DNA of 31,531 nt. Origin: a virus. The notes beneath the pieces were generated by a model. It made no database searches and was not told where the DNA came from. It saw only the letters and a list, made by a program, of their open reading frames with translations. This document shows, one piece after another, positions 3,541 to 16,353 of the stretch. The stretch is from IMG/VR virus record IMGVR_UViG_3300027833_000155, positions 1 through 31,531 of that record; one strand, 5' to 3'. The first letter of the stretch is position 1. The number at the start of each line of letters is the position of its first letter. The translations under genes were made by a program, and so were the position numbers.

Positions 3541-4017
3541 TTACTCCTTTAAAACTTCTAAGGTTTTAAGGGCTGACTGATCTAAAGCAAACAGTTCGCC
3601 CCAACCTAGATTCATAATGTTTTTTTGATTTAACAGTTCTTCTTTAGAAGCAAGACCTGCAAATGTATAACTAGGGAAAGAGCCTACCATTAACATATAG
3701 TAATCGCAAGACTTATTTACTTTATGAAGTCCTGCACACAGCCTTCCAGTTTTATACTTAGTAGATTTAACATCTATAGTTTTACCATTAAACATAAGAT
3801 CATGGTCAGGGATAACATCTAAATCTAAATCGGGCCAGACATTTAAAAGTTTTGCTGCGGCCAACTCCGAACCAAATCCTTCTAGGTCAGTTTCAAAATC
3901 AGACTGTGGGCCTTTCCGGTTATTCTTAATACCCGCTGCTCTAGATGTTTCGTATATAGACTTAGCCATGTGTTTAGCAATGCGCTGTTCAACAGCATTT
4001 AAATTAATGTGTTTCAC
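3541..4017 (-). CDS. putative PD-(D/E)XK endonuclease-like protein
   Basis: A 158-residue protein with a plausible PD-(D/E)XK core: Glu51 in GFGSELAAAKLL, Asp73 in DHDLMFNGKT, and Asp82-Val-Lys84 in TIDVKST. This spacing (helix with Glu, then D-x9-D-x-K) resembles small restriction-like or resolvase-like nucleases found beside phage polymerases. The start overlaps the polymerase end by 14 bases and the GIY-YIG gene follows after 3 bases. The fold is inferred from motif spacing only; a catalytically inactive relative is possible. Confidence 0.7.
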   Translation of the reverse strand: MKHINLNAVEQRIAKHMAKSIYETSRAAGIKNNRKGPQSDFETDLEGFGSELAAAKLLNVWPDLDLDVIPDHDLMFNGKTIDVKSTKYKTGRLCAGLHKVNKSCDYYMLMVGSFPSYTFAGLASKEELLNQKNIMNLGWGELFALDQSALKTLEVLKE

Positions 4018-5776
4018 TCCAGTTCTCCCCGACTTTATAGTCTCCGTCCAATGGACAGTTTAAGTTAAGCATACACCCTGCTTCTATAATAGCTTGAACA
4101 CCTGCCTTACCAACGTCTAAAGCGTCATAAAGGTGACACTCAATCTGCCATTCGTCATGTACGTTAGCTACAAACTTAGCGTCCCAACCGTTATTCTTTA
4201 TTTTCTGATCCAGAATAATCAACGCTTGTTTCATTACAATCGCCCCTGCTCCCTGCAATAAAGTATTTAAAGCTGCGTGTTCAGACCGGACTAAAAGCTT
4301 GCGGCCATCAAGACCTTTTATTTTGCCTGACTTAGCTTCTCTTTGTACTTTTCCTGAAAGATTTTTAAATGATGGGAGATTATCAAAGAAAGACTTTCTA
4401 AGTTCTTTACCTGCTGCTCTGCCTCTTCCAGCCACTGAGCCAAGCTTTGCATCTCCTGCTCCGTACAAGAGTGCATAGATAAAAGTTTTTGCCTGATTTC
4501 TAGATTCAAGTCCTGCAAGTTTTTGGTTAGCTGTGTGGATGTCTCCATTGAGTATTTCATTTGTATAAGCCTCGTCATTTAAATAATGTGCAAGCATCCT
4601 AAGTTCTAAGCCAGACGCATCAATGCCTACAAGTTTATATCCTTTTGGCACAATCCAACACGACCTACACTCTTTGCCATAAGGGGAGTTGCTACTGGGG
4701 ATTTGAGCCATGTTCGGGTGGGAATGTGTCATTCTAGATGTCACTGCTCCGTTAGGATTAACATAGCCATGCACTCTTCCTGTATCTTCATCCAACTCTT
4801 TAAGCCAACTGTTCACTTGAGCTAAACGCTTTTGAAGCATTAGATAGTTAGCAATGAGGGCAGCTTCGGGAATATGCTTAACTTTATTTAAAGTACCTTC
4901 ATCAACAATAGGCTGTCCTGTAGGAGTATAGTTCTTGGGCTTCCATCCGAACCGAATAAGATACTCTCCGATCTGTTTGCGTGATCCAAGGTTAAACTCA
5001 ATAAATGTTTTTCGTGCAATAGGTTTGCGTTCAATATCTAAAGCAAGTATTTCATATTCCCTATCATTAAGTCTTACACCTTTTCCATGTTGATCAACTG
5101 CTGTTTTAGCTAATGCTCCGGTAGCAGTAAACTTAGGGGTTAGTATCTGAGTTATAACAGTAGGTTTAAATCTTTCTTGAACCTCCTGTTTAACTTGATC
5201 TAGCTTTTCTTGGAACATTGCAACAAGCAGCATTGCTTTACGTTGATCAAGTACAAACCCATTAGTTCTTTGTTGATCTACAATCTTGGCTGTAGCGTGT
5301 TCAATCTTAACGGATGTAGGGGTGAAGCCTCTGCTTTCTAACTTCAAGGCTTGATATACTTTATAGTTCAACTCGACATCTCTGCGACAGTAATCTAACA
5401 TCTCAGGGCGATAGGAGTCCCAAGCATCTTCCTGTTCGCCATATGTTCCTTTGTTAAATCCTAAACGATAGCCCCAACTCTCAAGACCGTGGCCTCCTTC
5501 TCTTGTAGGTTTAAACAAGCGGGAGAGAACTAAGGTATCAACAACCTTACATTTAGATAGGTCTATACCTGCAATTCTCTCTACCACAGGAATGTCATAG
5601 CCTATTATGTTATGTCCTATTAACTTTGTTGCAGACATTAACATATCATATCCTTCTTGTAGCTGAGTGTTGTCAAATGTAAACACATCATTAGTGTCTA
5701 CATCCAGAGCTACAATACAAAATATTTTAGTGGGGTTTAGTCCATCAGCTTCTATATCAAAAACTAAATTACTCAT
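4004..5776 (-). CDS. family A DNA polymerase, T7 gp5-like
   Basis: A 590-residue replicative polymerase with a 3'-5' exonuclease domain. Exo I: Asp7 and Glu9 (DIEADGL). Exo II: GHNIIGYD (54-61). Exo III: Tyr129 to Asp133 (YCRRD). Polymerase motif A: GIDASGLELR, Asp386. Motif B: Arg426-x3-Lys430-x3-Tyr434-x3-Tyr438-Gly. Motif C: VHDEW, His540-Asp541-Glu542. All catalytic residues are intact. Tyr434 matches position 762 of E. coli Pol I. The protein is over 100 residues shorter than T7 gp5 (704), and the exo-to-palm stretch is about 50 residues shorter, so the thioredoxin-binding loop is probably absent. It starts by ATGA overlap with the primase-helicase. Confidence 0.97.
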   Translation of the reverse strand: MSNLVFDIEADGLNPTKIFCIVALDVDTNDVFTFDNTQLQEGYDMLMSATKLIGHNIIGYDIPVVERIAGIDLSKCKVVDTLVLSRLFKPTREGGHGLESWGYRLGFNKGTYGEQEDAWDSYRPEMLDYCRRDVELNYKVYQALKLESRGFTPTSVKIEHATAKIVDQQRTNGFVLDQRKAMLLVAMFQEKLDQVKQEVQERFKPTVITQILTPKFTATGALAKTAVDQHGKGVRLNDREYEILALDIERKPIARKTFIEFNLGSRKQIGEYLIRFGWKPKNYTPTGQPIVDEGTLNKVKHIPEAALIANYLMLQKRLAQVNSWLKELDEDTGRVHGYVNPNGAVTSRMTHSHPNMAQIPSSNSPYGKECRSCWIVPKGYKLVGIDASGLELRMLAHYLNDEAYTNEILNGDIHTANQKLAGLESRNQAKTFIYALLYGAGDAKLGSVAGRGRAAGKELRKSFFDNLPSFKNLSGKVQREAKSGKIKGLDGRKLLVRSEHAALNTLLQGAGAIVMKQALIILDQKIKNNGWDAKFVANVHDEWQIECHLYDALDVGKAGVQAIIEAGCMLNLNCPLDGDYKVGENWSETH

Positions 5777-14532: not shown

Positions 14533-15018
14533 TTATTTAGCCGCTTGTAAGATTTCAAGCATTGCATCCAGTTTAGAATCAATATCAGAGACTTTAGTCT
14601 CAAGTGCAGTAATTCTATTGTCCATCTTTTTAGCTACGCTATTCACCGGAGTAGCTTTCTTGACAGCCTTTGGCTTGTTAGAATCTAAAGCCTCTTCAGC
14701 TTGCTGAACTGTCTGCTGTTTAGCTTTAGCTACTGGTTTAGCTTTAACTTTCTTAGCAGCCTTCGGCTTTTTAATCAGCTTCAAAATTTCCTTTGGAACA
14801 ACCTGATGCTCTCTGAAATCTGTCACATCACCATGAGTCATGTGAGAGTCCTGATCGCCATAGAATTTATTCAGAACGGCGTTGAACACTTTGGTCAAAC
14901 CGTATCGCTCCGAAGGATTCTTGGCATGGATATTAGCAAAGTGGCAAGCTACGCCATAGACTTGTTTAGCACTAGCAATTTTGTTGTTGTCGATATTAAC
15001 GAAGTTAATGTTGTTCAT
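14533..15018 (-). CDS. three-part phage protein: N-terminal domain, K/A-rich linker, coiled coil
   Basis: A 161-residue protein and the first gene after the large control region. I choose the ATG at 15018 with AAGG 8 bases upstream; a GTG nine bases earlier overlaps that site. Residues 1-80 form a folded, helical-looking domain (QVYGVACHFANIHAKNPSERYG). Residues about 80-130 are a Lys/Ala/Pro/Val linker typical of DNA-bound tails. The last 30 residues (MDNRITALETKVSDIDSKLD...) are a clear coiled coil. This arrangement suggests an oligomeric DNA-binding protein, possibly nucleoid-like. The promoter at 15762-15790 would place over 700 bases of leader in front of it. Confidence 0.75.
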   Translation of the reverse strand: MNNINFVNIDNNKIASAKQVYGVACHFANIHAKNPSERYGLTKVFNAVLNKFYGDQDSHMTHGDVTDFREHQVVPKEILKLIKKPKAAKKVKAKPVAKAKQQTVQQAEEALDSNKPKAVKKATPVNSVAKKMDNRITALETKVSDIDSKLDAMLEILQAAK

Positions 15019-15085
15019 AATAATCACCTTGAGAAAAATTTATAATTTTTGGACTGACTCAATCGGTCAGCAGTTTTCGACTTTA

Positions 15086-15150
15086 GCTTCTATATTAAAT
15101 AACTTAAAAAGTCATAAATGACTTCTTTTTAAGTTATTTAATATAGAAGC
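15086..15150. repeat. large AT-rich inverted repeat (about 30-bp arms)
   Basis: The left arm 15086-15115 (GCTTCTATATTAAATAAC...) is the reverse complement of 15118-15150 except for two extra bases (CT) in the right arm, with only two bases between arms. Transcribed, it gives a hairpin of about 30 base pairs; as DNA it could form a cruciform. It is 68 bases before the first leftward gene and has no T-run, so it is not an ordinary terminator. Long near-perfect stems of this sort are typical RNase III targets in phage leaders. Confidence 0.85.
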
Positions 15151-15154
15151 TTTA

Positions 15155-15191
15155 TTAGTACATTAGTATATATAGTATACTAATGTACTAA
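15155..15191. repeat. perfect 16-bp inverted repeat with 5-base loop
   Basis: TTAGTACATTAGTATA (15155-15170) pairs without mismatch with TATACTAATGTACTAA (15176-15191) across the loop TATAG. It directly adjoins the larger inverted repeat at 15086-15150, so two long hairpins stand side by side between the palindrome-rich tract and the first leftward gene. Confidence 0.88.
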
Positions 15192-15659
15192 AAGTTTGAG
15201 GCAACAGCAAAGCTGTCGTGTGAGTCTGGGTGCATCTGAAGTCTTTAAAAGACTTTTAAGCTACTTGGTGGAAATCGCCAATTCCTCCTTCGGAGGGTTG
15301 TTAGCTAAGAAATCTAGCAATCTCTTTAGAAGTATAATCCTTAGATTATAAATCCTTGTAAGTCGTTGAAATCCTTGGAAGTCTCTATAGAAATTCTAAA
15401 GAATTTTAAAAGTCTCTAAAGTCTCTACAGTTTGGAAACTAGATTATAAATCTATGGAGATCTCTCAAGTCTTTTAAAGACTTTATAGCGTGGGCGATAG
15501 AATCTATGGATTCTCTGGAAGTCTTTTAAAGACTTTAAGGGGCGGGCAGGTGGCCATACCCCCACCCCCCTATATATACACAATCATATACATTTTGGCA
15601 GACTTTAGAGTGTCAACCAGTTAGCGCGGCAGCTTTAAAGACTTTAAAGGGTAAACATG
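15192..15659. other. gene-free palindrome-rich tract, candidate structured leader RNA or replication origin
   Basis: No convincing reading frame exists on either strand. At least eight short dyads follow one another: AAGTCTTT-AAAGACTT with one central base at 15239-15255, 15467-15483 and 15519-15535; a branched fold at 15259-15306 (TTGGTG/CGCCAA and CCTCC/GGAGG inside AGCTA/TAGCT); AGATT-ATA-AATC at about 15343-15354 and 15441-15452; AAATTCT-AA-AGAATTT at 15391-15406; AGAATC-TATG-GATTCT at 15499-15514; and CTTTAAAG twice at 15633-15649. Direct repeats include AGTCTCTA and AAATCCTTG, the latter with a 19-base period. A GC island lies at 15538-15570. Leftward transcription from 15.76 kb would make all of this a leader RNA. 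Confidence 0.7.
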
Positions 15660-15761
15660 GTGCAGATAAATGTACACAAAGAACACTTATATGTACATAA
15701 AAAGGGGGAGGAAGATGGTTGTGTCTGAAATGACTATATAACCCCGGTGGGCTTAATATCT

Positions 15762-15790
15762 ATTATAGGAGTAATATTGAATTCTGTCAA
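15762..15790 (-). promoter_or_regulatory. perfect consensus sigma70 promoter, leftward
   Basis: On the minus strand TTGACA (15790-15785), 17 bases, TATAAT (15767-15762), both hexamers perfect. The start would be near 15755, which gives a leader of about 735 bases before the first ATG at 15018. It forms a divergent pair with the rightward promoter at 15895-15923. Confidence 0.85.
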
Positions 15791-15822
15791 GCTATTTCGT
15801 ATGTATTCGCTGCATGAGCCTC

Positions 15823-15854
15823 CACTTACATATACCATTAATGATATATAAGTG
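15823..15854. promoter_or_regulatory. dyad element between the divergent promoters, possible operator
   Basis: CACTTA (15823-15828) and TAAGTG (15849-15854) flank alternating AT sequence around the palindrome CATTAATG (15836-15843). The arms match at 10 of 11 positions if a two-base offset is allowed. It lies about midway between the two -35 boxes, the usual place for a shared operator. No repressor gene is seen in this window. Confidence 0.4.
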
Positions 15855-15894
15855 TATATATGACGTATAATATATCATAAAAGGTATAAACTAC

Positions 15895-15923
15895 TTGACA
15901 GTAATGCTTTTTAGGTATATACT
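15895..15923 (+). promoter_or_regulatory. sigma70-type promoter for the packaging and virion genes
   Basis: TTGACA (15895-15900), 17 bases, TATACT (15918-15923), 11 of 12 hexamer positions. The start would be near 15930, some 25 bases before the small terminase ATG. No good ribosome site precedes that ATG, so translation from this short leader may be weak or depend on AT-rich context. It is the only strong rightward promoter found before the late genes. Confidence 0.8.
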
Positions 15924-15954
15924 ATATATATATAATAGATAAACTAGATTAGAT

Positions 15955-16353
15955 ATGAGTCAGACTAAAGAATTAACAACCAAGCAGGAAGCTTTTCTCA
16001 ACCACTTAGTTGAAGTAGGAGGTGATCCGCGCAAAGCAGCAGAATTAGCTGGCTATGCAGATAGTAGTTATCCATCGGTTGTTAAATCATTAAAGACGGA
16101 GATCTTGGATCTAGCTACAAATATCTTAGCCCAGTCTGCACCAAAAGCAGCGATGAAGCTCGTAGACATTATGGATAGTGCAGAGCCAATTCCACAGGCC
16201 AATATGCGTATACAAGCAGCACAAACCATATTAGATCGTGTAGGTTTAGGGAAGACCGACCGTTTAGATGTAACGGTAAACACGGCAGGTGGTATTTTTG
16301 TATTACCCGCAAAACAAGAAACAGTGTTGGAGGGTGACTATGAGGAGGTCTAG
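15955..16353 (+). CDS. terminase small subunit-like protein
   Basis: A 132-residue protein with a helix-turn-helix-like N-terminus (LTTKQEAFLNHLVEVGGDPRKAAELAGYAD split over residues 7-36), the usual start of small terminase subunits that recognise phage DNA. The central helical region (LATNILAQSAPKAAMKLVDIM) would build the oligomeric ring, and the C-terminus ends in an acidic tail. It is the first late gene and precedes the large terminase by one small gene. It overlaps that small gene by 14 bases. Position and length fit the family. Confidence 0.82.
   Translation: MSQTKELTTKQEAFLNHLVEVGGDPRKAAELAGYADSSYPSVVKSLKTEILDLATNILAQSAPKAAMKLVDIMDSAEPIPQANMRIQAAQTILDRVGLGKTDRLDVTVNTAGGIFVLPAKQETVLEGDYEEV

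Follow-up and report, generated by a model that had tools for sequence, protein, structure and literature searches.

Gene order and features of the gap

The DNA analysed here (the window) is a 31.5-kb virus fragment that is identical to its source record. Leftward genes lie left of 15027, DNA polymerase A (4004-5776) among them, and rightward genes, terS and terL, run from 15955 on. The gap between the two divergent operons (Table 1) contains no ORF longer than 51 aa wholly within it. TerL is 64-67% identical to that of the Pelagibacter phages HTVC115P, HTVC104P and HTVC103P, over 85-86% of the query, and its identity to HMO-2011 and the roseophages is lower; the window is an HTVC103P-related marine podophage. 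Passages of one report describe HTVC103P-type phages and an uncultured 'group IV' as having packaging modules of the HMO-2011 type together with other replication genes (PMC8528129), and we infer that the window belongs to group IV. The HMO-2011-type group, with which the window lineage has packaging genes in common, is dominant in the ocean and broadly distributed according to parts of two reports (PMC9038755; PMC8528129).

Of 598 TerL relatives the best 80 were kept; 77 of these had a terS match and 37 had both flanking genes. Gap length was 591-1026 bp in 36 of the 37 and 1448 bp in the other. In 27 of the 77 terS loci (L005-L082) the contig starts no more than 950 bp ahead of terS; the starting points are scattered and are either assembly breaks or genome ends. 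A distant DNA search among phages gave no match, a tRNA/tmRNA search found none, and nothing on this region was found in open-licence papers.

Table 1. Coordinates of genes, promoters and repeat elements in and around the gap
Feature	Position	Strand	Remarks
First leftward-operon gene	14533-15027	-	164 aa from GTG; 40 homologues aligned; AlphaFold2
Gene-free gap between divergent operons	15028-15954		leftward replication genes on one side, rightward terS/terL on the other
Hp-B, 27-base perfect arms, 13 bases between	15085-15151		inner pattern in 16/54 nonredundant sequences
Hp-A, TTAGTA...TACTAA, 16-base arms, 100%	15155-15191		pattern in 16/54 nonredundant sequences
Hairpin CGACAGC-UUU-GCUGUUG	15202-15218	-	one G-U
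Palindrome copy 1	15239-15255		AAGTCTTTNAAAGACTT
Stretch matched by R1	15265-15413	-	60.5 bits, E 1.9e-11; sequence-only 31.9 bits, E 4e-8
Hairpin CCTCC-TTC-GGAGG	15284-15296		relatives: similar hairpins, other stems
Motif UUUCAACGACUUA, then hairpin UAUAAUC-UAAG-GAUUAUA (15333-15350)	15333-15371	-	
Hairpin AAATTC-UUUA-GAAUUU	15391-15406	-	first helix of R1
Hairpin TAGATT-ATA-AATCTA	15440-15454		
Palindrome copy 2	15467-15483		AAGTCTTTNAAAGACTT
Hairpin AGAATC-TATG-GATTCT	15499-15514		
Palindrome copy 3	15519-15535		AAGTCTTTNAAAGACTT
Core block, nearly invariant, ~75 bp	15545-15620		200-440 nt before terS; 67/74 regions
Palindrome CTTTAAA-GAC-TTTAAAG	15633-15649		less symmetric in several relatives
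Small hairpin, expected leader 5' end	15739-15755	-	sequence kept in relatives
Promoter P_L, TTGACA-17-TATAAT	15762-15790	-	12/12 positions
Promoter P_R towards terS, TTGACA-17-TATACT	15895-15923	+	11/12 positions
Terminase small subunit (terS)	15955-16353	+	phrog_2538, E 7.1e-7

The perfect leftward promoter claimed in the sequence-only reading of this DNA is present. Of 74 terS-upstream regions, 73 carry TTGACA-17-TATA[AC]T on the P_L strand; the one without it has 238 bases. The leader length claimed there also holds: counted from ~15755, where transcription would probably start, the first leftward gene is about 730 bases away, whichever of its two starts (GTG 15027 or ATG 15018) is used; ATG 15018 is the more likely start. 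The product of this gene, modeled by AlphaFold2 (mean pLDDT 74.7), has a helical domain followed by a linker rich in Lys and then a coiled coil, and a fold search gave no PDB match at E <= 0.001. This basic protein is a candidate nucleic-acid-binding partner.

Palindromes and their covariation

The same reading had placed a long chain of palindromes at 15192-15659. The chain is real, lies far above chance and is found again in relatives that share the gene order, but those limits cut it, since the two longest inverted repeats (Hp-A and Hp-B) lie just to the left. The palindrome AAGTCTTTNAAAGACTT is present in exactly three copies and is absent elsewhere in the window at up to two mismatches, and shuffles give 0.04 +/- 0.20 copies. 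The second palindrome pair, AGATTATAAATC (15343-15354 and 15441-15452), and the joining repeats AAAGTCTCT and AAATCCTTG are likewise present, and the window has an excess of 6-base matches at a 9-base lag (z 11.8), as do 4 of 10 relatives tested. Stems of at least 6 pairs numbered 245 in 28 regions, from which 10 named near-duplicates had been left out beforehand, against 80.4 in shuffles; in a second, larger set downstream of P_L (21 near-duplicates left out beforehand) there were 376 against 151.6. Hairpins occur at like distances from the core block in different phages, with differing stems. Alignment of the whole region was unworkable because the spacing varies, and the analysis was therefore made per element.

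Two checks proposed in the sequence-only reading, namely folding of the leftward transcript against dinucleotide shuffles and a search of relatives for compensatory changes, both gave positive results. The leftward strand from 15755 to 15192 folds with z -5.57, with 0 of 100 shuffles as good, and from 15755 to 15019, which takes in the long hairpins, with z -11.49 (0 of 20 shuffles as good). The rightward strand without the long hairpins also folds better than its shuffles (z -3.91, 0 of 100 as good). In a set made up of the window and 36 relatives, with near-duplicates retained and L072 left out for its length, the mean z is -6.13 leftward and -5.09 rightward. Covariation was examined for five named helices in 14 relatives with 500 shuffles and slid controls. 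Paired cells made up 97.3% of 413 (shuffled mean 91.5), 10 pairs had changed on both sides (3.9 in shuffles), and the covariation score was 0.174 against 0.077 +/- 0.008, slid controls all being at or below 0.059. Each of these three values was reached by none of the 500 shuffles, and the number of further pair types, 20, by 27 of 500. Related sequences may exceed shuffles even without structure, which the slid controls and the held-out search described below answer in part. We conclude that the predicted hairpins are kept through compensatory letter changes. The small hairpin at the expected 5' end was rejected as a covarying element, as its fixed-register covariation was not above shuffles.

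A further case is a motif followed by its hairpin. The UUUCAAnnACUUA pattern was found in 26 of 49 sequences long enough to hold it, where 0.4 are expected, and in all 21 distinct stretches of the motif alignment (A7; L178 left out) it is followed by a hairpin with five or more stem pairs and three or four loop bases. The inner arms at the aligned place are of six kinds (UAAUC, UAGUC, UAAGC, UAGAC, UGAGC and UAAUA), and L181 has a second, equally long stem after the motif. The motif is a conserved element, predicted to be unpaired, beside a covarying hairpin.

A covariance model (R1) was built from the 14 relatives, with the window excluded, and was searched together with a model of sequence only (R2) on 32 sources outside the R1 training set. 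With a cut-off of E < 0.001, 14 of the 32 gave an R1 match on the P_L strand and the other 18 gave none. The 14, with R1/R2 bits where compared, are the window (60.5/31.9), L043 (69.0/42.5), L004 (59.8/30.0), L042 (57.3/33.8), L049 (50.5/21.9), L047 (50.5/20.8), L159 (48.4/24.5), L032, L029, L188, L006, L070, L022 and L106. Two of the R1 helices fit the window fully, one mostly does not, and one has a broken pair. Because of the palindromes R1 also reaches 35.3 bits on the window's opposite strand (15384-15519); in L070 it scores the other strand slightly higher than the P_L strand, and in L077 it reaches E < 0.001 on the other strand only.

The question then is which strand carries the structure. 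In alignment A5, from which L022 and L043 had been left out beforehand for different spacing, reading as leftward RNA gives 17 G-U against 4 A-C cells, and U-A and U-G exchange within the first helix of the 14-relative covariation set. Single-mismatch stems read leftward show 46 G-T (13.9 expected), about ten of them from one conserved place, and 28 A-C (19.2 expected). Against a leftward preference, the neighbour-pair alignments gave 96 G-U and 102 A-C, which we count as equal. The RNAalifold consensus of one clade, with the window, L122, L109, L103 and L113 left out for different spacing, has a weak energy on either strand, and a slightly better one on the other strand (-10.0) than leftward (-8.6). 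Of the stems that neighbours have kept, 53 were double-changed, 6 had an internal G-U and 21 had one internal broken pair; the inferred pairing is stricter in its Watson-Crick form than is usual for RNA. Thus the structured leftward RNA proposed earlier agrees with the folding and the compensatory changes, while the evidence on strand is mixed, and a leftward RNA appears the more likely.

Long terminal hairpins and the core block

Counts of Hp-A and Hp-B are based on patterns that require end or inner letters, arm extension being stopped at two close mismatches. In 13 distinct Hp-B hairpins there are 346 pairs, of which 2 are mismatched and none is G-U, and at least two pair types occur at 18 of 27 positions. 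Their arms of 27-28 bases change in sequence together with almost no mismatch, a pattern that looks more like correction at the DNA level than like the ordinary evolution of an RNA. The 3' arm carries AAGG or GGAG in 8 of 12 distinct strictly perfect arms, with an ATG 3-5 bases after the arm, and in many relatives this arm holds the putative ribosome-binding site of the first gene. In the window the Hp-B is of another type (L151), in which the ATG is 66 bases on and the ribosome-binding site lies outside the hairpin. A role of the Hp-B U-run as terminator was dropped, because the run is inside a longer stem and a gene start follows just after it in many relatives.

In some relatives the first leftward gene is preceded by a second promoter-like site and by no Hp-A or Hp-B. 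L004 is one of these; its TerS is 99% identical, yet the left end of the gap (15028-15240) is wholly different, which is, judged by sequence comparison, a module exchange.

The seven regions of 74 in which the core block was missed have only 202-281 bases upstream. The block pattern was found in 98 stretches of the viral collection, with terS alongside in 90 of 94 new loci, the remaining 4 ending too near to tell, and the exact pattern had no match in the genome_contigs collection. Invariance of the pattern letters in A1 comes from the way the stretches were picked, because the search pattern forces them; the flanks are not forced. A profile of the block, from which 19 near-duplicates had been left out beforehand, finds HTVC103P (E 4e-6) and HTVC104P (E 1e-4), leaves unreported a similar stretch read by eye in HTVC115P, and has no significant match in HMO-2011, the whole of CRP-9 or 5 kb of CRP-1. 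The block is probably a separate DNA site. Read on one and the same strand, its G/C tract (15558-15570), beside TATATATA, is rich in G in some relatives and in C in others. We disfavour an R-loop or a quadruplex at this tract, as many relatives are C-rich there on the strand in question.

A proposed leader of the replication operon and its alternatives

The explanation that we prefer, to which we give an even chance, is that the palindromes are helices of a structured, untranslated 5' leader of about 730 nt made from P_L ahead of the replication operon. A promoter upstream and a gene downstream lie on the same strand, with covarying helices between them. P_L would produce a long leader RNA with its chain of hairpins and then the early replication operon, and the hairpins would control the extent of its transcription or translation. 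This could take place through RNase III cleavage at the long terminal hairpins, through attenuation, or through binding of a phage protein, possibly the basic product of the first gene, while the core block would act apart from the leader as a DNA site. We regard it as possible, but doubtful, that the leader is instead freed by the two terminal hairpins as a stable noncoding RNA of several hundred bases that belongs to no Rfam class; a phage or host protein would then bind at the UUUCAAnnACUUA motif and its hairpin.

The leader of the phage lambda pL-N system consists of a strong promoter, an untranslated leader and an RNase III hairpin before the first early gene. The region described here is similar in its strong promoter, predicted untranslated leader and long hairpin before the first early gene and, in many relatives, in a long hairpin that would hold the ribosome-binding site of this gene; it differs in having about 730 nt and ten or more hairpins. 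The put antitermination RNA of HK022 is short and promoter-proximal. Like put, the RNA predicted here is structured and lies downstream of an early phage promoter, but the region is long and has no Rfam match. At the gathering threshold no Rfam family, GOLLD, ROOL and put included, was found in the whole window or in 8 related loci, and at E <= 1 there were sub-threshold matches, 12 of 13 to microRNA models and nearly all on the long hairpin. GOLLD and ROOL, as presented in sections of one paper (PMC12286853), are also long structured noncoding RNAs linked to phages; here a chain of short hairpins is predicted, and again without a match in Rfam. Clusters of contiguous short hairpins with stems of 2-10 pairs serve as intrinsic terminators after operons, according to portions of another report (PMC8355165); the hairpins are alike in size and contiguity, but the chain of the window is located between a promoter and the first gene. 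Among the HTVC103P-type pelagiphages the likeness extends to TerL and the core block, whereas the end regions of HTVC103P, HTVC104P and HTVC115P give no R1 match at E <= 1. HMO-2011 (1-42600) and CRP-9 (1-50000) give none either.

A replication origin, considered in the sequence-only reading as well, is a possible but rather unlikely alternative. The core block, with its AT-rich stretch and G/C tract, would open, the palindromes would be sites or single-strand hairpins for replication proteins, and transcription from P_L may prime synthesis. A place where gene orientation and GC skew change over would suit an origin, although gene orientation explains the skew equally. The block is tied to the lineage, being found in HTVC103P and HTVC104P and not significantly in HMO-2011 and CRP-9, which have other replication modules; the hairpin chain starts beside it, the 9-base repeats would suit an origin, and the strict Watson-Crick pairing is consistent with DNA. 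Iterons would be repeats of one binding site; there are three identical palindromes but also many other stems. The palindromes vary by place within one genome, unlike iterons for one protein. The change of the G/C tract between G-rich and C-rich argues against an R-loop primer there.

It is improbable that the palindromes have little function and are kept mainly by replication, which would correct imperfect inverted repeats through template switching. This would account for arms that change together with few intermediates (the 2 non-Watson-Crick pairs of 346 in Hp-B) and for the excess of double-changed stems (53) over stems with one internal broken pair (21), but it would explain neither why hairpins stay at similar offsets next to a conserved unpaired motif nor why U-A and U-G alternate within one helix.

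That TerS recognises the region as a pac or cos site, where packaging would start, is very improbable: the core block precedes terS by 200-440 nt in all loci that are long enough and many contigs start nearby, but those starts do not fall at one point, and CRP-9 and CRP-1, which have homologous TerS (39-42%), show no block match over the whole of CRP-9 and 5 kb of CRP-1, which also makes the packaging RNA suggested earlier less likely. Hairpin promoters of the N4 type, which would call for a phage RNA polymerase, were considered as well; no such polymerase was found in a test without positive control: PF00940 was detected in 0 of 12 relatives but also in 0 of 14 control genomes. In one relative, covered in three stretches that make up 36.3 of its 49.7 kb, the largest ORF is 1083 aa.

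A conserved structured control region between divergent operons would be a concrete candidate for the early/late switch of this lineage, on which a search in print found nothing. No phage RNA polymerase was detected in the relatives, with the same lack of a positive control. P_L and P_R of the same phage agree on average at 5.6 of the last nine spacer positions, against 3.7 when P_R is shuffled among phages (maximum of 2000 shuffles 4.4; n=56; kinship ignored). The spacer bases beside the -10 box are thus common to both promoters of one phage and differ between phages, and perhaps one co-evolving regulator binds both P_L and P_R.
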